From: Phocaeicola barnesiae DSM 18169 = JCM 13652
GTDB taxonomy: Bacteria > Bacteroidota > Bacteroidia > Bacteroidales > Bacteroidaceae
NCBI RefSeq assembly: GCF_000374585.1
Contig: NZ_KB894645.1
Span: forward strand, 124,001 to 188,000
DNA length: 64,000 bases
Direction of reading: 5' to 3'
Under the pieces are notes generated by a model. That model saw nothing but the letters and a program-made list of their open reading frames with translations. It was not told where the DNA came from and made no database searches. Within the stretch, counting starts at the first letter, position 1. Each line of letters starts with the position of its first letter. A program made the position numbers and the translations under genes. This document shows positions 43,961 to 56,470 of the stretch, in pieces.

Positions 43961-43993
43961 ATGTTTCATCTTTTTGTTACATTTACGAAACAT
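43961..43993. repeat. Inverted repeat ahead of the metallophosphoesterase gene
   Basis: ATGTTTC (43961-43967) and GAAACAT (43987-43993) flank TTGTTACA (43974-43981), an 8-mer also found in the palindrome upstream of receptor A. Confidence 0.4.
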
Positions 43994-44030
43994 AAAACCG
44001 ATACTTTTATAAGATTAAAAAGCGTAACTT

Positions 44031-45023
44031 ATGAAGAAACTTATCATCAGTATTTTTACTCTCTGCATGGGAATGCTTGGCATGCAGGCACAGACCTTAC
44101 AATTCAATTCCAACAAGAAATTCAAGATTGTCCAGTTTACCGATGTACATTGGGTACCCGGAAATCCGGCCTCGGAAGAAGCTGCCGAACGTATGAACGA
44201 AATACTGGATACAGAAAAGCCTGATCTAGTCATTTATACCGGCGACCTGATTTTCGCCAAACCTGCGGCCGAAGGGTTGGACAAAGCACTGGAACCTACC
44301 ATCTCCCGCCACATTCCGTTTGCCGTCACCTGGGGAAACCACGATGACGAACAGGATATGACCCGTACGGAGTTATCGGAATATGTAGAAAAGAAAGACG
44401 GATGCCTGAACACCCGGACCGAAGGCATTTCCGGAGTCAGCAATTTCGTCCTGCCTGTTCAAGCTTCCACTGGAAATACCGAAGCAGCCGTACTTTATAT
44501 CTTCGACAGTAACACCTATTCATCGCTGAAACAGATTAAAGGATACGACTGGATAAAGGCAGACCAGGTAGAATGGTACCGCAAGGAAAGCGCCGCATTC
44601 ACTGCCCGTAACGGTGGAAAACCCCTACCGGCCATGGCTTTCTTCCATATCCCGTTCCCGGAATACAACCAGGCTGCCCAGAACGAAAATGCCTTGCTGA
44701 TAGGAACCCGCAAGGAAAAAGCCTGTGCACCGGCCATCAATACCGGTCTGTATGCCGCCATGCTGAATGCCGGTGATGTCATGGCCACCTTCGTCGGTCA
44801 TGACCATGTGAACGATTATGTGGTCGACTGGAACAATATTCTGCTAGGCTACGGACGCTTTACAGGAGGCAAAACCGTCTACCACGACATTCCGGGAGGC
44901 AACGGCGCACGTGTCATCGAGCTCCAAGAAGGAGAAAGAAGCTTCAAGACCTGGATACGTCTGAAAGGAGGCAAGGTAATCAACCTTGTCACTTATCCGA
45001 CAGACTTCGCCCGCGGAGAATAA
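44031..45023 (+). CDS. Secreted calcineurin-type metallophosphoesterase
   Basis: 330 residues. Signal peptide 1-20 (ending M-Q-A-Q). Metal-binding motifs are complete: D-V-H-W (F-T-D-V-H), Y-T-G-D-L-I-F, W-G-N-H-D-D-E, and near the C-terminal end F-V-G-H-D-H-V-N-D-Y. The closest recognisable group is the Dcr2/PhoD-unrelated family of purple-phosphatase-like enzymes. It removes phosphate from an unknown ester in the periplasm. It stands 170-odd bases from the end of a locus with an NPP phosphodiesterase, two TonB receptors and a GDPD, so a phosphate-scavenging role is inferred. Confidence 0.92.
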   Translation: MKKLIISIFTLCMGMLGMQAQTLQFNSNKKFKIVQFTDVHWVPGNPASEEAAERMNEILDTEKPDLVIYTGDLIFAKPAAEGLDKALEPTISRHIPFAVTWGNHDDEQDMTRTELSEYVEKKDGCLNTRTEGISGVSNFVLPVQASTGNTEAAVLYIFDSNTYSSLKQIKGYDWIKADQVEWYRKESAAFTARNGGKPLPAMAFFHIPFPEYNQAAQNENALLIGTRKEKACAPAINTGLYAAMLNAGDVMATFVGHDHVNDYVVDWNNILLGYGRFTGGKTVYHDIPGGNGARVIELQEGERSFKTWIRLKGGKVINLVTYPTDFARGE

Positions 45024-45200: not shown

Positions 45201-46388
45201 TCAACGCTCCAACAAATCGAAAATCTGGCTGATATCTCCGTCACAGGGCGCAGGTTCAATACCCAGTAAATAAGCCAGAAGCGGGTAAATACAGGTATTG
45301 TCGAAAAATGTCTGACGCACATACCCGTGTTTGAAGTCAGGACCTTCGGCACGGAAAGGCACATAAAGATCAGAGTTTGTCGGATCGAAGCCATGATTTC
45401 CCAAGTTCACATCTGTACTTTCAGTCACCAGCCAACCATTGTCTGGCAAAGCCACGATAGGCGCCACATTAGGATTGGAACCATAGTGCAAATACGCAGG
45501 TACTTCCTCCCGACGCCACGCACGCAAATGAGGGACCTGTTTCAAAGCCTTTAGGATATCATCCTCATAACCTTCCCGGGGGAAAATCAGTGTAGGCAGA
45601 TCAACCAGTATCCGCTCGCACCAGTCAGGCTTCAGGTAATCCGAAAGACGGATAATCCGTTCAGGTGAAGTAGAAGCCATACCATGATCTGAAGTTACGA
45701 TAAAGTTAATGTCCTCGCCTTCTGGCAGAGCACGTAATCGGATATACAAATCGTTCAGTAGCGAATCCAGTTCCTCCACAGCACGGCGGGTAGATTTCGA
45801 AGCCGGTCCATAAAGATGTCCGCTATAATCAGGCTCATCAAAATAAACCATGACAAGCTGTGGGCGCAAGCTATCAGGGAGAGTCAACAACCGCTCAACC
45901 TCATTCAAACGTTGCGGATAAGTCAATAAAGGCTTTTGTGCATAATCCTTATAGTAGTCGGGATACTGTCCCTGGATTGCCACATCGGACCCGGGCCAAT
46001 AAACGACTCCTACTTTAACTCCCTGACGATGGGCCGTCAACCAAATAGGTTCACCTCCATAAAACGATCCGTCCTTACCAGTATCTTTATCGCTGATACT
46101 GTACGTCCGCCCCGAAGAAACATCGTAAAAACGGTTGGCTATAATCCCATGATGATCGGGTACAAGCCCTGTAGCCAAAGTATAATGGTTGGGAAATGTT
46201 TTCGAAGGGAATGAGGGACGCATTACCGCACTAACCCCCCGATTACCCAATGAATCCAGGAATGGAGTATCATACATGAGCGGATAATCCCATCGGCAAC
46301 CGTCAAGAGACACAATAACTGTAACATGCTGTTTCGCAAACGAACAGACAGAAACAAAAAGGAACAATAACATTAAAATCTTTCTCAT
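45201..46388 (-). CDS. Secreted nucleotide pyrophosphatase/phosphodiesterase (NPP, alkaline phosphatase superfamily)
   Basis: 395 residues from ATG 46388 (MRKILMLLFLFVSVCSFA, a clear signal peptide); 20 upstream codons are open but not signal-like. It has V-S-L-D-G-C-R-W-D-Y, the nucleophile motif F-P-S-K-T-F-P-N-H-Y-T-L with catalytic Thr, Y-F-D-E-P-D-Y-S-G-H, T-S-D-H-G-M and a late N-H-G-F-D. These match ectonucleotide pyrophosphatase/phosphodiesterases, which cleave nucleotides or lysophospholipid diesters. It lies 126 bases downstream of receptor A on the same strand with no promoter box of its own, so it probably depends on that transcript. Confidence 0.93.
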   Translation of the reverse strand: MRKILMLLFLFVSVCSFAKQHVTVIVSLDGCRWDYPLMYDTPFLDSLGNRGVSAVMRPSFPSKTFPNHYTLATGLVPDHHGIIANRFYDVSSGRTYSISDKDTGKDGSFYGGEPIWLTAHRQGVKVGVVYWPGSDVAIQGQYPDYYKDYAQKPLLTYPQRLNEVERLLTLPDSLRPQLVMVYFDEPDYSGHLYGPASKSTRRAVEELDSLLNDLYIRLRALPEGEDINFIVTSDHGMASTSPERIIRLSDYLKPDWCERILVDLPTLIFPREGYEDDILKALKQVPHLRAWRREEVPAYLHYGSNPNVAPIVALPDNGWLVTESTDVNLGNHGFDPTNSDLYVPFRAEGPDFKHGYVRQTFFDNTCIYPLLAYLLGIEPAPCDGDISQIFDLLER

Positions 46389-46412
46389 ACCATTCAAATT
46401 ATCATAAAAGAA

Positions 46413-46482
46413 AGAGCGGGTATGCCACAGATTTAGAACCAGCTTCACAGAAAAGCAATGGTCTTATCGGCATTCCCGCTCT
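46413..46482 (-). terminator. Long hairpin between receptor A and the NPP gene
   Basis: On the minus strand AGAGCGGG-ATGCC and GGCAT-CCCGCTCT pair with one mismatch around a long loop and are followed by TTCTTTTAT. It may be a terminator or attenuator that sets the ratio of receptor to enzyme. Confidence 0.65.
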
Positions 46483-46514
46483 CTCGGGTTGAAATTTAAT
46501 ATACGCTATCCGAA

Positions 46515-49500
46515 TCAGTTAAAGTAATATTTTACACCGATCTGCATACGCCAGCACTGGTCATAATTGCGGTTGAAAGTCCAACTGGTAAGCGGTGTTC
46601 CATCACTGTTCTTGAACATAGAGAAATAAGGAGTTCCATTCTCTATCTTATCTACTTTCAAGATAGCACCATTATTACAATTGCTCATGTTCTTCTCTAC
46701 ACCCCACTTGGAATTGAAGAGATTACCTACGTTCATGATATCTACACTCAATTGCAACTTATTAGTCGTTTTACCCAATTTCACATCAAAATCATGAGCC
46801 CAACGGAAATCGAAACGATTTACCCATGGAGCATAGGCACTGTACGCTTCGGCATATTCACCCTTATGATTTTTCAAATAACTGTCTTGATTTACAAAAT
46901 CCCAGAAAAGTTGTCTGTCGCTTTCATTAGTGAAATGTATTTCACTGTCATCCTTAGGGATGTACATCAAATCTGTATTGTTTCCATCACCATTGATATC
47001 ATTTGAATAAACAAAGCTATAACCTGCACCTCTATAACCGGTATAGAATAAGCTGAAGTGGTCTTTATGATAAGTGTAGCTTACGGAAGCAATCACACGG
47101 TCAGGAATCACATATTGAGAGTTATGCAGTTCTACATTGTTAGGACCGTTCACTGTATACAGACCCGACCAGGCTGAAGAAGCATTACTACCCGGCATAC
47201 CCGACATTTCCTTCATGACCGTATGCGTATAGGCAGCCATCAGGTGAAGGTCCTTCACCGGTTCAGCGGTTGCTGTCAGGTTCATGGTCCAGCCGTAACC
47301 CTTATGAGTATTGGTCAGCACACAGGCGTTGCTGAAATCATTGTAATAACGATAGTCGCTCGGATAGAGATAACGGTTGTCGGCACCCTGCAAGCGTTCC
47401 CAGCTGGAATCAATAGGCTTCACATTGTAGTTATCCAACATCACAGCATTGATATTCTTGGTGTAAGTAAACTCACCGGTCAGTGTCATCGGGAAGACAA
47501 CAGGAAACTGATAGTCGACAGCCAATGAAGACTTCCATACCTGAGGCATCTTGAAGTTCTTGTCCACACCAGCAATCTCGCTAGGTACCGTACCTTCGTC
47601 AGGGCTGATAGACTCAGGCGCTCCAAGCAATTCACGGATTTTATTGACATCCGTCACCAGACCACCAACAAAGTTCTGCAGACGCGGGTCGGACGATTTC
47701 ACCACACCGGTAGCTCCTTCATATCGGGTATCGGCATGTACCAGATTCTGCACCATACCCGAATTGGTCGGCATGTTGGTGAAGAATACCAGCGGTAGAC
47801 GTCCGGCAAAGAGTCCCGTACCGCCACGCACCTTCAGGCTCTTGTCACCGAACACGTCCCAGGTGAAACCGATACGCGGAGAAATCTGCACGTTTCCGTC
47901 AGGCCATGCACCGGTGTCGATATGGCGACCACCGAAGTCCAGGTCATAGATGGCGTTGTTACGCATCAGGTCATCGCTATTAAACGAGATCATATCGAAA
48001 CGAATACCACCTGTCAGTTTCAGATTCTCTGAAATATTCCACTCATCCTGTGCATACAGGCCGTACTGATTGAATACGACCTCAGCATTAGGATTAGCCT
48101 CACCGTTATAACCATAAGCTAAACCTACCGTTTCAGGAGCAGCGCCATTCAAGAAATCATCCAACGAACGATAACGGTAATAACCTGTTCCTCCACGCAT
48201 GTAAGAGTTATTGGCCAATTGGTGTTCAAAACTGAAACCTGCCGTAATCTTATGCGCACCTGCATAATAAGTAAAGTTATCGGTTATGGTCGTAATCTTG
48301 TTCTGTACACGGTTATTATAAGAGAATAGTTCATAACCCAGACTCATATAAGGAGTAAGGCTCTGTGTAACCGTGCCGTCTGCTGCGGTTTCATAGCCTC
48401 CCATGATGTCGATGAAAGGGAAAGGTGATGAGTTAGAACCACGTACGTCATCAATATTCGTATAAGTGAACAACAGCTGGTTGGAGATGTTGTTGCCGAA
48501 GCGGCTGTTAAAGTCAGCCGAAACAGTGCTCACTTTGTTATCCATAGAATACATGGAGTTGGCAAAAGACATGGAGTATTGTGACAGACGGTCCATGTTA
48601 CGGAGACGATAGCCGGTGTCGCCGGAGTTTCCGTTCACAGGATTCCAGGCGGTATTCTTGGTATAGTTATAACGAACGGCCAGGTGATGGTTGTCCGTAA
48701 TGTTCCAGTCAATACGTCCCAACAGCTTCAGGTTACTCTCATCTGCCGGGAAATCGGTGAATGAGCCTGTGTCGTAGCCATAGCGCTGCATCATGAAGTC
48801 GCGCACTTTCTGCAGATCGGCCACCGTAGTACGTGAAATGTAGTTGTCAGGATCGGCTACACCGTCTTCCGAAGCACGCCAGCGGTTGATGACCGACGGC
48901 ACCTTAGCATATTCGGCATTCGCAAAAAAGAAAAGCTTGTTCTTCACAATCGGTCCGCCGAACGTAAAACCATAAGTAGTATTGCGGTTGATGCCACGTT
49001 CACCCAAATCCGTATCATCGATGCGGTTACCGTGCATATTCTCATTATTGTGATAAATATAAGCTGTACCCTTGAAAGTATTGGTACCCGACTTGGTTAC
49101 TGCGTTGATACCACCTCCGATGAAGTTGGTCTGGCGAACATCAAAAGGAGTCACCACTACCTGTACCTCATCAAGAGCGTCCATAGAGATAGGCATACCA
49201 CCACCAGGCAGGGTAGACGACAATCCAAAGTTGTTGTTCAGATTAGCTCCGTCAAGCGTAAAATTGGTAGAACGTCCGTCACCTCCAGCAAAACCCATAC
49301 CATTGGCATAAGGAGAGACACGTGCAATATCCGAAATGCTACGGCTTACTGTAGGCAAGGACATCATCTGCGCATTCGAGATATTGGTTGTAGCACCGGT
49401 CTTCTCGGCGGCAAACTTGGAGCGGGTACCCGTCACCACTACCTCGCCCAGTTCGGTTACATCTTCAGAAAGACTCACATTGATATTATAAGTCTCACCC

Positions 49501-49796
49501 AGTTGAAGTGTGATATCCTCGATGGTCCGGTCGGCATATCCGATATAGGTGATTTCCACTTCATACGGCCCACCTACACGCATACCCTAGATAGCCCAAC
49601 GTCCATCGGTGTTGGTAATCGCACTATAAGTTGTACCCGAAGGTTGGTGAACGACCCGAATCAGGGCACTGATGACATCTTCGCCCAATTCATCAGAAAC
49701 ATGTCCAGACATTGCTGAAGTGGTAACCTGAGCGTTCATTGCTGCCGCCGTTAAAGACATCAACGCAGCAAAAAATAATCGCATTTGTTTTGCCAT
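46515..49796 (-). pseudogene. Oar-type TonB-dependent receptor A, interrupted by an in-frame amber codon
   Basis: A single frame of 1,093 codons broken only by TAG at codon 70 (49587-49589, CTA on plus). The 5' part (49587-49796) has a signal peptide (M-A-K-Q-M-R, ending M-N-A-Q) and the start of a carboxypeptidase-like domain; the 3' part (46515-49583) continues at once with G-M-R-V-G-G-P-Y-E-V-E-I-T-Y-I-G-Y, the plug domain and the barrel, ending G-V-K-Y-Y-F-N. Related receptors read N-T-D-G-R-Y-x-I-Q-G-M-R, so the stop replaces a Gln codon by one C-to-T change. There is no SusD gene, as usual for the Oar type. Reinitiation at ATG 49583 would lack a signal peptide. Readthrough is possible but unsupported. 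Confidence 0.9.
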
Positions 49797-49836
49797 AATT
49801 TTTGTATTAAAATTATAAAGATTTGAGATCCGTGTG

Positions 49837-49844
49837 CAAAATTA
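49837..49844 (-). promoter_or_regulatory. -7 box for receptor A
   Basis: TAATTTTG on the minus strand, 40 bases before the start at 49796. It is intact although the gene is not. Confidence 0.6.
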
Positions 49845-49860
49845 GAGAAAAATAAGGAAA

Positions 49861-49875
49861 AAGTTGTTACAACTT
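49861..49875. promoter_or_regulatory. Palindromic operator-like site upstream of receptor A
   Basis: AAGTTGTTACAACTT is a perfect 7-bp palindrome around one base. It begins 16 bases upstream of the -7 box, over the -33 region, where a repressor or activator could act. Confidence 0.5.
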
Positions 49876-50653
49876 AATTAAGAATCAATCATCAAAGTTA
49901 TTTTTGACCTTGAGCTGTCGAAGTTAAAAAAGTATGATTGAATTCTATAAAAAACAGATTCTCAACAGAAAGCGGATAATCCAGCAAACTAATAACCTCT
50001 AACCGGCATATCAATATCCTCAAAAATATGTGAAGCAGAACTAACATATTCTTTATTTATCATTCAGCCCCATTACATTATTAAATCCTATCACCCCTTT
50101 TGTATTATCAATCTGATACAGAAATAGAGATTTCATTATCTTTTTAAATTAAATTTCATGAGAATACGAACATACATTTTTTTAATAACCTCGCATCCAG
50201 AACGGATTTACCTATATTTTATACATATTTATACAGGAATAACACCGATTTATAGTTTTTTATCCACCTCCCGGACGAATAAAAAAACCAAAAACATGCA
50301 GGGAAAAAATAATTTTGTCTAGTCAAAAAGCAGAAAACGCCTAGGAAGATGAATGAGAATGAACGTTTATGCTGAAAAAAGCATCAAAAGGAAGGGTATA
50401 GAACGCTAACTGATACGAATCGGACGATATTCCTGAATGTTCCCAAAGAAAGCATCTACGTCTTATTGGAATCATCAAGACAACAAATCATCCAGAGAAC
50501 GATACAGAACGCTTGTAAACGACGGAACTGATAACATTCAGCCAGCTATAGGATCTGTAAGAAACACATTTTCACGGCAAAGTCCGGAAGAAGCACGAAC
50601 TACACGATTCTCAACCTATCCGAATGAGCAAAATGACAGAATGAAAGCGCCGG
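49876..50653. other. AT-rich intergenic region without a supported gene
   Basis: About 780 bases between receptor A and the NlpC/P60 gene. The left two thirds are strongly AT-rich. A 104-codon plus-strand frame (50437-50751) overlaps the peptidase gene antisense, has no homology I recognise, and is not called. I see no RNA gene, and no clear terminator for the peptidase gene. Confidence 0.5.
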
Positions 50654-51151
50654 TTAAGAAAGCAATATCCGGCGGGCACCTACGTAACGTTTGGCATAAT
50701 AAGGTTCGTCCGAAGAAGAGATGCGGATGCCTGTGCGGCTGGCATGGATGAAAGAGAAAGTACCGGTAGACGGATTCACATCGGTTACAATCCCAACATG
50801 CCCGATTGAAGTGGATGAAGAACGTGAGCCTCCGAAAAAGACCAGATCGCCTTTCTGCAAATCGGTACAACTGCTCACCTCTACTCCCTCTGTAAACTGG
50901 GAACGGGAAGAACGGGTCAACTGGATGTTTTCTTTCTTAAACACGTAAGTAGTAAAACCGGAACAGTCGAAACCGACTTTCGGATTCATACGTCCGCTAC
51001 GATAGGGAACACCGATGTATTTCATCGCTACCTTTACAATATCATGTCCGGTCACTGAAGTGGAATCTGCAGAAGTGGAAGTCTGAGCAGAGAGCGGTAA
51101 GCTAAAAATACCGGCCAAACAGAAGAGCAAAGTAGCGATAACGTATCTCAT
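50654..51151 (-). CDS. Secreted NlpC/P60 (C40) peptidoglycan peptidase
   Basis: 165 residues. Signal peptide 1-22 (ending L-S-A-Q). The C40 domain (about 38-165) has the catalytic triad: Cys in V-G-F-D-C-S-G-F, His in S-I-G-H-V-G-I, and a third polar residue (His) in F-S-F-I-H-A-S. Such enzymes cleave the D-Glu-mDAP bond in peptidoglycan stems. It lacks SH3 or LysM domains, so it is a minimal form. It lies between the two TonB receptors but has its own promoter box and no evident link to them. Confidence 0.93.
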   Translation of the reverse strand: MRYVIATLLFCLAGIFSLPLSAQTSTSADSTSVTGHDIVKVAMKYIGVPYRSGRMNPKVGFDCSGFTTYVFKKENIQLTRSSRSQFTEGVEVSSCTDLQKGDLVFFGGSRSSSTSIGHVGIVTDVNPSTGTFSFIHASRTGIRISSSDEPYYAKRYVGARRILLS

Positions 51152-51641
51152 GCGGTTATTTACAATCGTTTATAGGGTTATACATCTCATTGAACTGTGT
51201 CACAAATTTATAAATTAATTATTCGCACAACAACCAGTTTTACAACTTTTGGCAGGTTCAATTTTCCGCACAACTACATTAAATTCCTGGCTAAACAGCT
51301 ATAAATTAAAAACATAAGCATATCCGAAACAAATACCCGTCTCATATTGTATTCATTTTTTTTAAGATATATCTTCCTCTTCAATCTTAAAAAGAAATGT
51401 TCAGTTTTATTTCCAAACATTTTTGTAAAGCAATCCGCTCCCCCCTATAGCCACTTCGTCAGCAGGAAAACAACCCGCTGAGAATAAACGCGTTTAATGG
51501 ATGAATCCATATACTGAATAAGGAGTTTATTCACAGAAATACAAACAGCCATTCGATGCAACCCGGTTCTGTAATATTTTATTAACAGAATTCACATCGT
51601 TTCTTTACCCCGCAGTTATCTCCCCGTAATGCAGCCGATCT
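51152..51641. other. Divergent intergenic region between the peptidase and receptor B
   Basis: About 490 AT-rich bases without a credible gene. It holds the peptidase promoter (51203-51210), a TTACAACTT (51240-51248) that shares nine bases with the receptor A palindrome, and the receptor B promoter just beyond its right end. Confidence 0.5.
51203..51210 (-). promoter_or_regulatory. -7 box for the NlpC/P60 gene
   Basis: TAAATTTG on the minus strand, 51 bases before the start. Confidence 0.5.
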
Positions 51642-51649
51642 ACTTTTGT
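51642..51649 (+). promoter_or_regulatory. -7 box for receptor B
   Basis: TACTTTTG, 29 bases before ATG 51679. Confidence 0.65.
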
Positions 51650-51678
51650 GAAAAATTCATAATCAATCTATAATTAGC

Positions 51679-54600
51679 ATGACAACAAAAGGTAAACAGA
51701 TTTTATTACTACTCTGCGCATTATTTTGTTCTATCCAACTATCCGCACAAGATAACAGAGCCGTAATATCAGGAATTGTAACAGATGAAACGGGAATGGA
51801 GGTTATCGGTGCCGCCATCCAGGTAAAGAACGAATCAACCGGTTTCCAGACCGGATCTATCACCAATGAAAAAGGTGAATATACCATCAAGCAGCTCCCT
51901 TTGGGCTCTCCCTATACGGTCAGTATCTCGTATGTAGGTTATGGCGACCAGAAGAAAACCGGTTATACCCTCAACCAAGGCGACCTGCTCCGTGTCGACT
52001 TTCAATTGAAAGAAGAGAGCGTAGTGATGGAAGCCGTCGAAGTAGTTGCCAACTCTCTTAAAAACAGTATCGCAACAACAGGAGCAGCCACTTCCGTAAC
52101 AGAAAGAGACCTGGAGAAACTTCCTGTCAACGGACGAAACTTCACCTCTCTGGTAGACCTATCTCCATTAAGTACCGGCTCCAGCCTGTCGGGACAGCTT
52201 GCCTCTTCTACCAACTATACCATAGACGGTATGACGGCAAAGAACCCAACTTCCGGAGGAAGTACTACCAGCCGTAACGGAGTGCCTTACGCCATTTCGA
52301 TGGAAGCCATCCGGGAATTTAAGGTAGTCACCAACCAATACGATGTAACCAACGGACGCGCCGGCGGTGGAACAGTCAGTACGGTTACCAAATCGGGTAC
52401 AAATACCTTGACCGGTAGTGCATTTACATTTGCACGGGCCAACTGGCTTTCCAGCCCATACGATATCCGTGGAAACAAACGCAACAATGACTTCTCGACT
52501 TACCAGTTCGGCGCTTCGCTGGGAGGAGCCTTGATTAAGGACCGTGCACATTTCTTCATCGCTTGGGACCATCAGGCTGATTCACGTCCGTTATACATCG
52601 CCGATATCCAGAGTGCCGCCGACGAGAAACGATACAGCCTGACCAGTGATGTACGCGACCGCTTCCTGCAGATTGCACGCGACAAATATGGAGTATCTTC
52701 CAATCCCCAGTTCGGAGCTTTCGACAAGACGCAGAGTACTGACGCCGTATTCGCACGCCTCGACTGGCAAATCAATGCAACCAATCTGCTTACATTCACC
52801 GACAACTTCGTGAATGATATGAACAACATGGGATTAGGAGACAATACAGCCATCAATTTATATGAAACCTACGGCGATGTACACTCACTGAACAACAGTG
52901 CCATGGCTACTCTCCGTTCGGTAGTCGGTCCTAAAGGTACCAATGAACTGAAATTACAACATCTTTATACCCTGGAAGAGTCAATGCCGGGTAAGGAACT
53001 TCCATCATCCAACATTCCACGTGCAATTGTAAGCAATGTGGAATCACAGATTGACGGCAAGACAGCTACCACCAGCATCCAATTGGGAGGTCAACGCTAC
53101 TGCCCGGAAAATTTCTACAACCATGTCCTTCAGGTAGTCGATAACTTCTACTATAACACAAACAAAATCAATTATACGTTCGGAGCAGACTTCATGTATA
53201 CACACATGAACTCCCGTTACGGTAGCGAGACAAACGGACGCTTCTACTTCAACGGAATGGACGCTTTCGAAAACCTGGAGCCGTACCGCTACGTCCGGGA
53301 ACTGTACTTGACCGAGGACGACCGTGTAAAGCAGAACATTCTGAATGCGGGAGTCTATGCACAGATGCAGACAAAATTGTTCTCCGGATTCGAAATGATA
53401 GCCGGATTACGTCTTGACAACGCCACTTACTTCAATAAAGGGACCTTCAACCAGACCGTATACGATGAACTGGGATTGAGAACCGACAACGGACTCTCCA
53501 CGTTCCAGATTCAACCCCGTCTGCAGTTTACCTGGGACATAAACGATAAACATAAAGACATTATCCGTGCAGGTGCCGGTATCTTCGCTTCCGATATCAA
53601 CAACTACGCCATGATCAATAACATGGTATTCGACGGTACCCGTACCGCTTCTCTGGATATCACGCTGGACCAGAAAGCTGCCAACTATGCAGAAATGCTG
53701 AACCTCATCAGACCGGATTTCCCTTCTTACCGTAAGGATCCTTCTACCGCACCAGGAGCCGAACTTTTCAACAATCCGAATGTAGAAAAACTTTCCACCA
53801 TCAACATGAACGGAGCCGATTGCAAAGTTCCGGTCATCTACAAAGCCAACCTGTCATATACCCACTTCTTCAGCGACCGTCTGAAAATGAGTGTAGCCGG
53901 ATACATGACCCTGGGACGCAACAACTACATGTATGTAGACCGCAATATGGTAGATGACCCTTATTTCCGCATCGAAGCAGAAGGAAACCGAGGAGTGTAT
54001 GTCCCGGCCAACACCATCAATGAGAAAGGTGTAGCAGACTGGAAAGAAGGCAGAAAGACGGACCAGATAGGACGTGTACTCGAAATGGTCAGCGATGGTA
54101 AAGTCAACCAGTTCGCCTTCGTCATCGACGGAACCTGGAGATACTTCAAGGATGGCGAAATCTCTTTCAGCTACACCTGGAACGATACGAAAGACAATAC
54201 TTCCTACAACGGAAACGTAGCCAATTCTGCCACACTTTCACAAATGGTAATCGATGACCCGCGCGACTTGAGCCGGATGACTTATTCCAACAACCAGTTC
54301 CGCCATAAAGTAGTGATTTACGGTACTGCTCCCACATTCTGGGGAATCAGCGTAGGTGCCCGCTTCTCCGGCATCGGAGGTACACGCTACTCCATGATAG
54401 TAGGCGGAAACGTGAACGGCGATTTTGTTGTTGACTCAAACGACCTGGCCTTCATCTATGACCCGAATGATCCTAATACACCACAATACCTGAAAGACGG
54501 TATCAACAATATCCTGAGCAATCCGGATGTAGAAGAAAGCACCAAAGATTATATCCGGAAAAGTTTCGGCAAGGTAGCCGAACGCAACGGAGGTGTCAAC

Positions 54601-54876
54601 GGATTCTACGGTACACTCGACTTACGCCTGGCCAAGAAATTCAAACTTTACAAGAAACATAACCTGGAACTGTCTGTCGATATATTCAACGTACTGAACA
54701 TGCTGAACAAGGACTGGGGAGCCGGACATAACCTGGGTACCCAGAAAATCTACACCATCAAAGGTTTCAATCAGGACAAGAAAGAATACGTCTACAACGT
54801 CAATGCAAACACCGGTGTTTCTAATCTGAACGGCACTCCGTATCAGGTACAAATCGGATTAAGATACGCATTCTGA
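51679..54876 (+). CDS. Oar-type TonB-dependent outer membrane receptor B
   Basis: 1,065 residues and intact. Signal peptide 1-23 (ending L-S-A-Q), carboxypeptidase-like regulatory domain (about 25-110; G-I-V-T-D-E-T-G-M-E-V-I-G-A-A-I and I-S-Y-V-G-Y), plug domain (about 115-245; L-P-V-N-G-R-N-F-T-S-L and Y-T-I-D-G), then a 22-strand-type barrel ending Q-I-G-L-R-Y-A-F. It lacks a SusD partner. Receptor A shares the layout but is clearly a divergent paralogue. It probably imports a bulky ligand with TonB energy; the GDPD gene 97 bases downstream suggests a phospholipid- or phosphodiester-derived ligand. Confidence 0.93.
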   Translation: MTTKGKQILLLLCALFCSIQLSAQDNRAVISGIVTDETGMEVIGAAIQVKNESTGFQTGSITNEKGEYTIKQLPLGSPYTVSISYVGYGDQKKTGYTLNQGDLLRVDFQLKEESVVMEAVEVVANSLKNSIATTGAATSVTERDLEKLPVNGRNFTSLVDLSPLSTGSSLSGQLASSTNYTIDGMTAKNPTSGGSTTSRNGVPYAISMEAIREFKVVTNQYDVTNGRAGGGTVSTVTKSGTNTLTGSAFTFARANWLSSPYDIRGNKRNNDFSTYQFGASLGGALIKDRAHFFIAWDHQADSRPLYIADIQSAADEKRYSLTSDVRDRFLQIARDKYGVSSNPQFGAFDKTQSTDAVFARLDWQINATNLLTFTDNFVNDMNNMGLGDNTAINLYETYGDVHSLNNSAMATLRSVVGPKGTNELKLQHLYTLEESMPGKELPSSNIPRAIVSNVESQIDGKTATTSIQLGGQRYCPENFYNHVLQVVDNFYYNTNKINYTFGADFMYTHMNSRYGSETNGRFYFNGMDAFENLEPYRYVRELYLTEDDRVKQNILNAGVYAQMQTKLFSGFEMIAGLRLDNATYFNKGTFNQTVYDELGLRTDNGLSTFQIQPRLQFTWDINDKHKDIIRAGAGIFASDINNYAMINNMVFDGTRTASLDITLDQKAANYAEMLNLIRPDFPSYRKDPSTAPGAELFNNPNVEKLSTINMNGADCKVPVIYKANLSYTHFFSDRLKMSVAGYMTLGRNNYMYVDRNMVDDPYFRIEAEGNRGVYVPANTINEKGVADWKEGRKTDQIGRVLEMVSDGKVNQFAFVIDGTWRYFKDGEISFSYTWNDTKDNTSYNGNVANSATLSQMVIDDPRDLSRMTYSNNQFRHKVVIYGTAPTFWGISVGARFSGIGGTRYSMIVGGNVNGDFVVDSNDLAFIYDPNDPNTPQYLKDGINNILSNPDVEESTKDYIRKSFGKVAERNGGVNGFYGTLDLRLAKKFKLYKKHNLELSVDIFNVLNMLNKDWGAGHNLGTQKIYTIKGFNQDKKEYVYNVNANTGVSNLNGTPYQVQIGLRYAF

Positions 54877-54973
54877 CAAAATCTCCCTGTTCATCCGAAA
54901 TTACTTGGATGAACAGGATTTATTCATTACCTTCAAAAAAACATTGAGTTGAATTTTCAAAATCATGTAACTT

Positions 54974-55729
54974 ATGAAAAAGATATTATTTATTTGCCTG
55001 ATGGCCTTCCACGTTTTATCCAGTTATTCACAAACCCGTATCATTGCCCACCGCGGCTTCTGGAACTGCGACGGGTCTGCACAGAACTCCATTACAGCCT
55101 TGAAGAAAGCCAGCCAGATACCTGTATACGGATCTGAATTCGATGTTCTGATGACTTCCGACGGTACATTGGTAGTCAATCATGATGACGTCATCGGCTC
55201 GGACACCATCAATCTTACACCTTATGCCCGCATCAAAGAAACGAAATTGAACAATGGCGAGACACTCCCTCTCCTTTCGGATTACCTGCAAGCCGGAAAG
55301 CAACTTCCAGAAACACAGTTAATCCTCGAAATCAAGCCTCATCTGACCAAGGAACTGGAGGACCGTGCTGTAGCAGCCATTGTAAAGATGGTAAATGAAA
55401 TGGGACTGGAAAAACAGGTAGAATACATTTCATTCAGTATGAATATCTGTGAACAACTGGTCAAACTGTCTCCGACATCAGAAATAGCCTATTTAAAGAG
55501 TGACATTGCCCCATCCGTTATCCGGGAAAAAGGACTGACAGGAATCGACTATTACTACAAAGTTTTCGACAAACATCCGGAATGGGTAGAGGAAGCTCAC
55601 AAAGTGGGTCTGAAAGTCAATGTCTGGACAGTAAATGAAACGCCGGACCTACAGAAAATGCTCGATTTGAAAGTGGACTTCATTACCACCGACCACCCGG
55701 TAGAAGCCAAGGAACTAGCCAGTAAATAA
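54974..55729 (+). CDS. Secreted glycerophosphodiester phosphodiesterase
   Basis: 251 residues. Signal peptide 1-20 (ending S-Y-S-Q). GDPD motifs are R-I-I-A-H-R-G-F-W, E-F-D-V-L-M-T-S-D-G, V-V-N-H-D-D and L-I-L-E-I-K-P-H, giving the two His and the acidic metal ligands. The usual P-E-N-T after H-R-G reads A-Q-N-S. It hydrolyses glycerophosphodiesters to glycerol-3-phosphate and an alcohol in the periplasm. No promoter box is seen in the 97-base gap after receptor B, so co-transcription is likely. Confidence 0.92.
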   Translation: MKKILFICLMAFHVLSSYSQTRIIAHRGFWNCDGSAQNSITALKKASQIPVYGSEFDVLMTSDGTLVVNHDDVIGSDTINLTPYARIKETKLNNGETLPLLSDYLQAGKQLPETQLILEIKPHLTKELEDRAVAAIVKMVNEMGLEKQVEYISFSMNICEQLVKLSPTSEIAYLKSDIAPSVIREKGLTGIDYYYKVFDKHPEWVEEAHKVGLKVNVWTVNETPDLQKMLDLKVDFITTDHPVEAKELASK

Positions 55730-55790
55730 GCCGATTGAGGGATTCACATCTTTTTCATCGGATAGAAACAACAGCGTAATACAGGACGGA

Positions 55791-55798
55791 TACTTTTG
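55791..55798 (+). promoter_or_regulatory. -7 box for the orphan secreted protein gene
   Basis: TACTTTTG, 30 bases before ATG 55829. Confidence 0.6.
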
Positions 55799-55828: not shown

Positions 55829-56470
55829 ATGAAGAAGATTTTTTTAGGATTTCTAACAGCATTGTCCATCTGCACATCTATCCACGCAGAAAACGTAAGT
55901 AGCAACGAAACGACAGAGAATGAACATTCTACTGTAAAAGTGTTGGTAATAGGTCTGCATGACAACGTAAGTTCCAATTATTTCCCGGAGAGCATGATTA
56001 CGGAAGAAACCGGCATACCGGAAGAAAGTATAGACAGTACCTACAACCAGATCATCACCAAAAACATCATCGAAACCAATAAAGATAAACACATCGTCTT
56101 TATTGATTCCAAAGGACTGGACGGTATCGGAAACATGATCAACGACATCACACTGACCGGAAACAACGAAGAACAGTATGCCGACCTAAGCCATATTGAA
56201 AGCAAGGATTATCATAACCTGCTGGACAATGCGCATGCCGATTACCTGTTGATACTTAACCAGCATTACCTGAAATGGCAAGAAAAGCCTTTGCGTACAT
56301 TATTCCACTTCGTAAGCTACTCGTTATTTGACAAAAGCCAGCAGGAAATTACCAAAGGAAACAGCTACTTTACTTGCATGAATCTGGAAAAAGCCGACAA
56401 ACTAATGAAAGCCAGCAAAAAGAGCTCATCTAAAATAGCCCTTAGCATTACCAAAAACATTGACAAGTAA
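55829..56470 (+). CDS. Secreted protein of unknown function
   Basis: 213 residues. Signal peptide 1-20 (M-K-K-I-F-L-G-F, ending I-H-A-E). A charged Asn/Glu-rich segment is followed by K-V-L-V-I-G-L-H-D-N-V-S-S-N-Y-F, then a mixed alpha/beta region with Y-L-L-I-L-N-Q-H-Y-L-K-W near 150. The single Cys lies near residue 187 (S-Y-F-T-C-M-N). I do not recognise the family. It is a monocistronic unit with its own promoter box and a very strong terminator. It could belong to the upstream phosphodiesterase locus, but the sequence shows no link. Confidence 0.8.
   Translation: MKKIFLGFLTALSICTSIHAENVSSNETTENEHSTVKVLVIGLHDNVSSNYFPESMITEETGIPEESIDSTYNQIITKNIIETNKDKHIVFIDSKGLDGIGNMINDITLTGNNEEQYADLSHIESKDYHNLLDNAHADYLLILNQHYLKWQEKPLRTLFHFVSYSLFDKSQQEITKGNSYFTCMNLEKADKLMKASKKSSSKIALSITKNIDK

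Follow-up and report, generated by a model that had tools for sequence, protein, structure and literature searches.

In Flavobacterium johnsoniae, the phosphate utilisation systems (PUS) I to IV combine outer-membrane TonB-dependent transporters (TBDTs) with co-located, predicted periplasmic phosphodiesterases or phosphatases, and their genes are among those of the low-phosphate response (PMC8115612). The same organism carries Fjoh_3841, an orphan TBDT (pf13620) that is induced by depletion of phosphate (Pi), with a transcriptome fold change printed as 7.69 (PMC8115612). In Bacteroides fragilis, pstS depends on PhoB, as do genes for a polyphosphate-selective porin, for a phosphate/sulphate permease and for a Na-dependent phosphate transporter, the last of which falls at low Pi (PMC3547664). 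Here we analyse a 64,000-nucleotide stretch of Phocaeicola barnesiae DSM 18169 = JCM 13652 (the window), in which two Oar-type TonB-dependent receptors, receptor A and receptor B, stand beside an NPP-type phosphodiesterase (NPP), a GDPD-type glycerophosphodiester phosphodiesterase (GDPD), a secreted metallophosphoesterase (MPE) and a conserved secreted protein that we call hyp56. The window spans positions 124001-188000 of contig C3 of this genome (G000; 3.62 Mb, 42 contigs), and the comparison set for the genus, treated as Phocaeicola, consists of 61 species genomes in draft contigs.

Polysaccharide utilisation loci follow the logic of a receptor coupled to a secreted hydrolase, which the island shares. 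In the Escherichia coli Ugp-GlpQ system a periplasmic GDPD feeds glycerophosphodiester use, ugp belongs to the Pho regulon, and entry proceeds by porin diffusion and an ABC transporter; a periplasmic GDPD is also predicted for the island, which, unlike Ugp-GlpQ, has a TonB-dependent receptor. Among the nine island sequences scanned with Pfam there is a co-located phosphoesterase, as under a strict definition of PUS, and neither a SusC/SusD-type (PusCD) pair, nor the SusD family, nor a carbohydrate enzyme. Co-location of a transporter with a phosphoesterase is common to the PUS and the island, but PUS I and II are SusCD-type pairs, whereas the island, which is known from sequence, joins an Oar-type receptor without SusD to GDPD or NPP and adds hyp56 (PMC8115612). 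Fjoh_3841 is a CarboxypepD_reg-type TBDT like receptor B, but differs from it in being an orphan with no co-located phosphorus genes (PMC8115612). We place the island among the known phosphate utilisation systems, as a variant without SusD. What is new is its regulation, namely a PhoB-type box at a SusD-less receptor–phosphoesterase unit, SusCD-type PUS and low-Pi orphan TBDTs being already known in Flavobacterium; a literature search, covering mostly titles and abstract openings, returned no description of an Oar-type receptor–GDPD/NPP Pho unit, a PhoB box array, exchangeable enzymes or hyp56.

We consider it probable that the locus is a PhoB-controlled island for the acquisition of organic phosphorus, with receptor B, GDPD and hyp56 as its working unit and a decaying receptor A–NPP module. 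At phosphate shortage, PhoB would bind 11-bp direct repeats that stand in helical register, usually at a distance of 10, 21 or 32 nt from the Bacteroidota -7 element downstream, and would turn on MPE, receptor A–NPP, receptor B–GDPD and hyp56. With hyp56 as a putative periplasmic accessory, the Oar-type, SusD-less receptor B would import small phosphodiesters, probably glycerophosphodiesters, through the outer membrane. In the periplasm, GDPD would convert the imported diesters to sn-glycerol-3-phosphate and an alcohol, which is the reaction of the GDPD family on glycerophosphodiesters, and phosphatases such as MPE would free phosphate for uptake by Pst/Pit transporters. The first-pass annotation of the window had envisaged release of products followed by their uptake; its organic-phosphorus role is retained, but the predicted order is reversed, import before cleavage being likelier than extracellular release then uptake because the enzymes, with plain signal peptides as judged by eye, are probably periplasmic. 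If this is true, phosphate utilisation systems would extend from soil Flavobacterium to gut Bacteroidales.

Layout of the locus

44031..45023, plus strand: MPE, secreted calcineurin-like metallophosphoesterase of 330 aa, convergent with NPP (PF00149, E 5e-13)
45201..46448, minus strand: NPP-type phosphodiesterase, open reading frame (ORF) from GTG, likely start ATG 46388 (PF01663, E 1e-80)
46515..49583, minus strand: C-terminal part of receptor A, 1022 aa, without signal peptide (PF25183, E 5e-52)
49587..49589, minus strand: in-frame TAG splitting receptor A (translation of 49572-49799, minus strand)
49590..49796, minus strand: N-terminal part of receptor A, signal peptide and start of CarboxypepD_reg
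50654..51151, minus strand: NlpC/P60 endopeptidase gene between the receptors, outside the unit and without Pho motif (PF00877, E 9e-23)
51679..54876, plus strand: receptor B, intact Oar-type TonB-dependent receptor of 1065 aa (PF25183, E 2e-39; PF13620, E 2e-18)
54886..54917, plus strand: 13-bp hairpin between receptor B and GDPD with a weak T tail, a possible attenuator
54974..55729, plus strand: GDPD-type glycerophosphodiester phosphodiesterase with signal peptide (PF03009, E 3e-22; solved relative 3no3, E 5e-68)
55829..56470, plus strand: hyp56, conserved secreted protein of no known family

The order along the locus is MPE (+), NPP (-), receptor A (-), NlpC/P60 (-), receptor B (+), GDPD (+), hyp56 (+) and a PepSY-like gene (-). 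Pfam bears out the placement and families that the first-pass annotation had given (Oar-type receptors without SusD, NPP, GDPD and a metallophosphoesterase at the left border), the signal peptides of the enzymes are visible by eye, and each enzyme gene does follow its receptor closely and in the same orientation. Both receptors match PF25183 (OMP_b-brl_4) and CarboxypepD_reg, receptor A only as two stop-split pieces, and both fall far below the cut-off of the SusC/RagA model TIGR04056. NPP scores 272 bits against a cut-off of 23 (PF01663); its nearest solved structures are ENPP5, ENPP4 and one bacterial NPP, and its KTFPNHY, DEPDYSGH, TSDHG and GNHG align with ENPP5. GDPD scores 80 bits against a cut-off of 23.6 (PF03009), its HRG and ExD aligning with 3no3 and its HDD standing opposite HDN. 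We take these aligned motifs to be active-site residues, with a Thr nucleophile and a two-metal site in NPP. For receptor B and MPE, no sequence relatives were found in the PDB at the E-values used. N-terminal signal peptides, judged by eye, are present in NPP (from ATG 46388), GDPD, MPE and hyp56; since those of NPP and GDPD are plain, without a lipobox, both enzymes are probably periplasmic.

Pho-type promoters in the window and the genus

The starting clue to phosphate control was an alignment of receptor B promoters, which showed TGTAAY-N10-TAnnTTTG. Of 18 genomes searched, 9 yielded the nine pstS genes that exceed the family cut-off, and every one of these genes carries a direct repeat of the type TGTAAC-N5-TGTAAC with an 11-bp period, CGTAAC and TGAAAC being among the variants; a half-site matrix was built from these pstS boxes alone (six distinct boxes). 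The matrix was applied to the 968 of 1094 upstream regions that remained after thinning related genomes by shared 10-mers, where a receptor is defined by its BLAST label and an ORF of >500 aa (44 recA, 27 recA2, 12 recA3 and 13 recB), a definition that takes in a few distant TonB receptors. Matches of at least 12 bits occur in 26/96 receptor promoters versus 13/872 of other genes (Fisher 8e-19; rank test 3e-16). At the same threshold, spacings of 8-10 and 12-14 give 0-2/96, six column-permuted matrices 0-2/96 and the reverse complement 1/96. For 26 of the 38 receptor boxes of at least 9 bits a -7 follows inside 50 nt, at a distance of 10 (6), 21 (17), 32 (2) or 33 (1) nt; among the 39 boxes that precede other genes, often hyp56, GDPD or NPP, the same distances recur, with a -7 at 10 (6), 21 (4), 28 (1), 32 (2) or 33 (1) nt. 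The simple motif YGTAAY-N10/21/32-TAnnTTTG is found upstream of hyp56 in 10/10 cases, of receptor B in 7/12 and of recA-like receptors in 20/84 (5/22 in the genus, 15/62 elsewhere), compared with 6/819 other genes and 0-1 in the receptor classes at shifted offsets.

Known phosphate genes carry the same box. A strict double box with -7 has 10 matches in 7 of the 61 genomes and 0 in the reversed control; four precede pstS, five PitA-like genes (Pfam PHO4 matching one of the five) and one an Oar-type receptor. Dropping the -7 yields 53 matches in six genomes versus 16 in the reversed control, and 10 versus 1 in G000, where four of the ten double boxes lie before pstS, Porin_O_P and PHO4 genes and before PhoB itself, a response regulator (L260) over the NF053854 cut-off. 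Eleven double boxes were fetched from three other genomes, and three of them, in G025, precede a Na/Pi cotransporter and, as judged by eye, an L264-like porin and a PhoB-like regulator. These kinds of gene have counterparts among the PhoB-dependent genes of B. fragilis (PMC3547664). To this extent the comparison with known Pho-regulon members proposed at the outset agrees; in the representative B. fragilis table (a selection of 585 genes) no TonB receptor, GDPD or NPP is listed, and the passages concerned print no Pho-box sequence (PMC3547664). Phosphorus genes of this group could be predicted from sequence by the Pho box TGTAAY-N5-TGTAAY, with TAnnTTTG following mostly after 10, 21 or 32 nt. 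One G000 double box (L265, G000:C7:180600-185700) is situated between a gene for a secreted 809-aa Metallophos protein, with PI-PLC-X below cut-off, and a divergent 519-aa ORF.

Within the window, four units of the island have Pho-type promoters:

43975..44009, plus strand: promoter of MPE, 17-nt direct-repeat box, N10 and -7-like TACTTTTA (matrix 11.4 bits in register, with the widened -7 only)
49837..49882, minus strand: promoter of receptor A, perfect second half-site TGTAAC, N21 and -7 TAATTTTG (matrix 10.7 bits)
51570..51648, plus strand: promoter of receptor B, six in-register 11-bp half-sites, the last CGTAAT, N10 and -7 TACTTTTG (array and core motif)
55764..55798, plus strand: promoter of hyp56, box, N10 and -7 TACTTTTG (matrix 8.4 bits in register)

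Scanning both strands of the 64 kb with the pstS matrix at 7.5 bits or more and a register rule returns receptor A and hyp56 only when the canonical TAnnTTTG is used; with the -7 widened to TAnnTTT[AG], MPE joins them, making three promoters and no other in the window. Under the widened rule, shuffled sequences average 0.05 matches and 0/300 reach three, eight permuted matrices (two of them identical) give one match in total, and three shifted offset sets also give one in total; the pstS genes of G000 and G016 carry such -7 variants. The receptor B promoter is marked by its array of half-sites (TGTAAT, ATTAAC, TCACAT, CTTTAC, AGTTAT, CGTAAT), ending 10 nt before TACTTTTG. None of 1000 dinucleotide shuffles equals its array score, five relatives with the same array give 0-3/1000, and a four-unit version in G024 and G040 gives 0/1000 each. 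Only 22/968 upstream regions score above it, and 20 of these belong to receptor, hyp56 or GDPD genes. The window holds two copies of the core motif with N10, one each at receptor B and hyp56, where 0.03 would be expected and 0/100 shuffles reach two; the form with N21 appears once, at receptor A, as it also does in 3/100 shuffles.

The first-pass annotation had seen no evident promoter at either enzyme gene, and we likewise found no Pho-type promoter at NPP or GDPD; across the wider set the Pho motif is found upstream of NPP in 0/12 cases. A divergent promoter common to both receptors is ruled out by the intervening NlpC/P60 gene and a distance of ~2 kb, and a scan with the sigma-70 consensus was uninformative (22 matches versus 25.3 expected).

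The receptor B unit in the genus and across Bacteroidota

Receptor B has matches in 14/61 genus genomes, in 12 of them at 78-100% identity, and in all 12 orthologues at or above 78% the next gene is GDPD (12/12). The gap between the two is 24-132 nt, save for one ORF called too early, and 24-30 nt in eight genomes; in G017 and G020 (L032, L033) it is long and holds large repeats, as seen by eye. In 11 of the 12 loci hyp56 adjoins GDPD, the exception being G017, where it lies 36 kb away and is preceded by the same kind of promoter. The two remoter matches of receptor B (61%) are followed by a metallophosphoesterase, which in the G051 copy (L328) is MetallophosN/C by Pfam. Together with the PhoB-type promoters of four units (MPE, receptor A, receptor B and hyp56), this conserved pairing supports, at the level of sequence, the role in phosphate scavenging that had first been proposed for the locus. 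Oar-type receptors are sparse, with 0-3 per genome and 41 genes in 35/61 genomes, of which 28 (29 counting G016) adjoin NPP, GDPD or a metallophosphoesterase; the remaining 12 lack such a neighbour, and two of these lie at contig ends.

GDPD is present in 42/61 genus genomes, and in a quick tree of 39 GDPD sequences the presence of receptor B needs 7 changes, at least four of which are imposed by well-supported branches. One site, recognisable by its shared left flank, carries receptor B–GDPD–hyp56 in G002 and G012, GDPD–hyp56 in G051, and GDPD without either in G004, G013 and G049. The deletion in G051 (L041 3488-3700) joins the receptor B promoter, together with the initial 49 nt of that gene, directly to the front of GDPD, and this genome holds a receptor B-like gene with a MetallophosN/C partner elsewhere; in G025 and G006 a receptor B-type promoter stands ahead of GDPD and receptor B is absent. 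Because these three genomes keep a receptor B-type promoter before GDPD, GDPD would be transcribed from the receptor B promoter, which indirectly suggests that receptor B and GDPD share one promoter. In G025, a hyp56-type promoter also stands before a gene that by eye is uridylate-kinase-like (L045 6990); hyp56 is absent there, and the promoter is apparently a remnant.

By co-occurrence, hyp56 is a conserved part of the receptor B unit: it is found in 16/19 Bacteroidales receptor B loci, in seven directly upstream of receptor B, and in 0/61 others, membership of Bacteroidales being judged from record titles. No family in Pfam or NCBIfam matches it at E 0.001. Its AlphaFold model has a pLDDT of 87, and its fold may be FlgT/TolB-N-like; a role as periplasmic accessory of receptor B is what we infer from the co-occurrence.

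Figures for receptor B homologues rest on the best 80 of 252 confirmed relatives, at 57-92% identity, which range from Phocaeicola to Chitinophaga, Dyadobacter, Pedobacter, Sphingobacterium and Flavobacterium; 77 of these 80 have a downstream ORF. Same-strand neighbours within 60 nt (n=25) comprise 16 GDPD, 4 MetallophosN/C, 3 NPP, 1 PHP-type and 1 hyp56, so that 24/25 are phosphoesterases, from four families; 7 of the 25 are within the genus, and the 18 outside it comprise 10 GDPD, 3 MetallophosN/C, 3 NPP, 1 PHP-type and 1 hyp56. The interval of 61-200 nt holds 3 GDPD, 5 NPP, 1 other receptor and 5 others, and beyond 200 nt there are 2 others. Partner labels come from BLAST; a Pfam search with 13 of the 24 phosphoesterases bore out 12, and the PHP-type partner (L332) stays below the Pfam and NCBIfam cut-offs. 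Outside the genus, matches of at least 9 bits precede 13/71 homologues versus 26/560 other genes (rank test 8e-9; 0.01-0.5 at other spacings), TAAY-N10-TAnnTTTG precedes 14/71 versus 7/560, and an 11-bp TAAY pair precedes 5/71 versus 3/560, with zero matches at seven other spacings.

These data bear on two other explanations. GDPD and NPP might salvage glycerophosphodiesters from the cell's own phospholipid turnover at low phosphate, as part of envelope remodelling, with the receptor serving another nutrient. Pho promoters would fit lipid remodelling equally well, GDPD is found in 42/61 genomes and receptor B in 14, and the low-Pi genes of F. johnsoniae include a lipid-remodelling group (PMC8115612). 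The box array, however, sits at the receptor promoter, and if the receptor had nothing to do with phosphorus, the phylum-wide ties of receptor B to several phosphoesterase families would be difficult to account for; we hold this explanation to be distinctly improbable. The cargo might otherwise be something other than a phosphodiester, such as chelated phosphate or a phosphorylated glycan or peptide, with the enzyme as one among several partners that release phosphorus. The partner does vary (GDPD, NPP, MetallophosN/C, PHP-type) while the receptor is 57-92% identical among the best 80 homologues, but GDPD is the commonest partner (19/77) and is kept in 12/12 of the closest orthologues, and such a cargo seems to us unlikely. 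As a tentative generalisation of the island reading, about which we are somewhat doubtful, receptor B may represent a phylum-wide family of SusD-less organic-phosphodiester transporters with interchangeable periplasmic phosphoesterases, a hyp56 subunit in Bacteroidales and a PhoB box array in Phocaeicola; head groups derived from phospholipids would then be taken in intact and actively across the outer membrane by gut Bacteroidales at phosphate shortage. To our knowledge, few substrates have been assigned to SusD-less Oar-type receptors, and a clade linked to phosphate control and swappable phosphoesterases would give them a concrete substrate class.

Receptor A, NPP and their relatives

Of the two receptor units first described for the locus, that of receptor B is intact, but receptor A is interrupted: the in-frame TAG at 49587-49589 cuts its signal peptide off from the 1022-aa remainder, which is the ORF originally listed and lacks a signal peptide. 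The two nearest copies of receptor A are damaged too, by a frameshift in G016 and by loss of the 5' part and an internal deletion in G218, so that the three nearest copies (G000, G016 and G218; L069, L159 and window 46515-49796) bear three different lesions next to an NPP whose frame is open. Since receptor A is broken in all three, and barring sequencing error, the receptor A–NPP module looks like it is decaying in this lineage, the stop codon pointing to loss of function. Loss of receptor A with NPP kept may have been favoured or tolerated.

The mirrored two-module design emphasised in the first-pass annotation is a feature of 1/61 genus genomes and does not hold as a general arrangement; G016 holds both modules 1.5 Mb apart, and draft contigs limit this count. 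Receptor–enzyme co-occurrence, whose absence from other genomes had been put forward as a refutation, is firm for receptor B–GDPD (12/12) and seen for NPP behind Oar-type receptors in 10 genomes, and is looser for the receptor A clade; the scavenging proposal withstands this check. NPP is present in 14/61 genomes at 15 places. In the 10 genomes where it lies directly 3' of an Oar-type receptor, including contig C12 of G000, where a second receptor–NPP pair has an unbroken receptor, those receptors are 32-37% identical to receptor A. Within the receptor A clade, NPP is downstream in G000, one ORF apart in G016, convergent in G050 and divergent in G008 and G057, and it is non-adjacent in G001, G021, G026, G043 and G054; in G021 a GDPD-family gene lies two genes upstream of the receptor A-clade gene. 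Pairing of receptor A with a phosphoesterase as a family-wide rule is unsupported, NPP adjoining the receptor in 5/67 regions from outside the genus.

Several findings weigh against the reading of the locus as a PhoB-controlled island. The thresholds of 12 and 7.5 bits and the widened -7 rule were chosen after the scores had been seen, TAnnTTT[AG] having been adopted after inspection of the MPE upstream sequence, and our confidence is slightly lowered because the MPE promoter hangs on this post hoc rule. Wrong spacings too yield a significant, though far weaker, rank test (Mann-Whitney 8e-8 to 5e-4, compared with 3e-16), as does the reverse-complement matrix (2e-4), so that the spacing and register counts weigh more than the p-value. 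The best matrix pair at receptor B in the window is weak, at 8.2 bits, and the case for this promoter is made by array and register. The strict double box with -7 has no match in G000, six of the ten G000 double boxes without -7 lie within ORFs or before genes with no known phosphate link, and none of five double-box regions fetched from G016 lies before a phosphate gene. The simple motif occurs in 2/33 GDPD upstream regions, paired and unpaired. Among the best 80 receptor B homologues, 36/77 have a downstream neighbour on the opposite strand, and outside the genus matches of at least 12 bits precede 1/71 homologues versus 8/560 other genes. Receptor A relatives in other genera adjoin BACON/OB-fold proteins, not enzymes. 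Lastly, a Pho box was found at 0/9 recA2–NPP promoters of the genus scanned to 600 nt, including the C12 pair (one further locus was omitted, its upstream sequence missing); phosphate control of the nucleotide-type arm therefore rests on the receptor A promoter.

The same boxless recA2–NPP pairs would suit scavenging of carbon or head groups (glycerol, choline, ethanolamine, nucleosides) free of phosphate control. Four units of the island nevertheless have Pho-type promoters, that of receptor B by its array, and the matrix scan finds no other in the window; we give this explanation very little credence.

A large ORF lies no more than 45 nt behind each of 15 recA-class receptors from other Bacteroidaceae genera (L106, L109, L119, L120, L128, L136, L140, L150, L151, L153, L156, L158, L160, L161 and L162); it is BACON-type in 14/15 and has an OB-fold match in 10/15. 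This large secreted protein, given its nucleic-acid-binding match, is perhaps a surface nucleic-acid binder. Several other recA-type receptors from other genera (L100, L111, L116, L124, L127, L129-L131, L135 and L139) are followed by an ORF of 110-122 aa, which by eye is cupin-like in L100 and L111.

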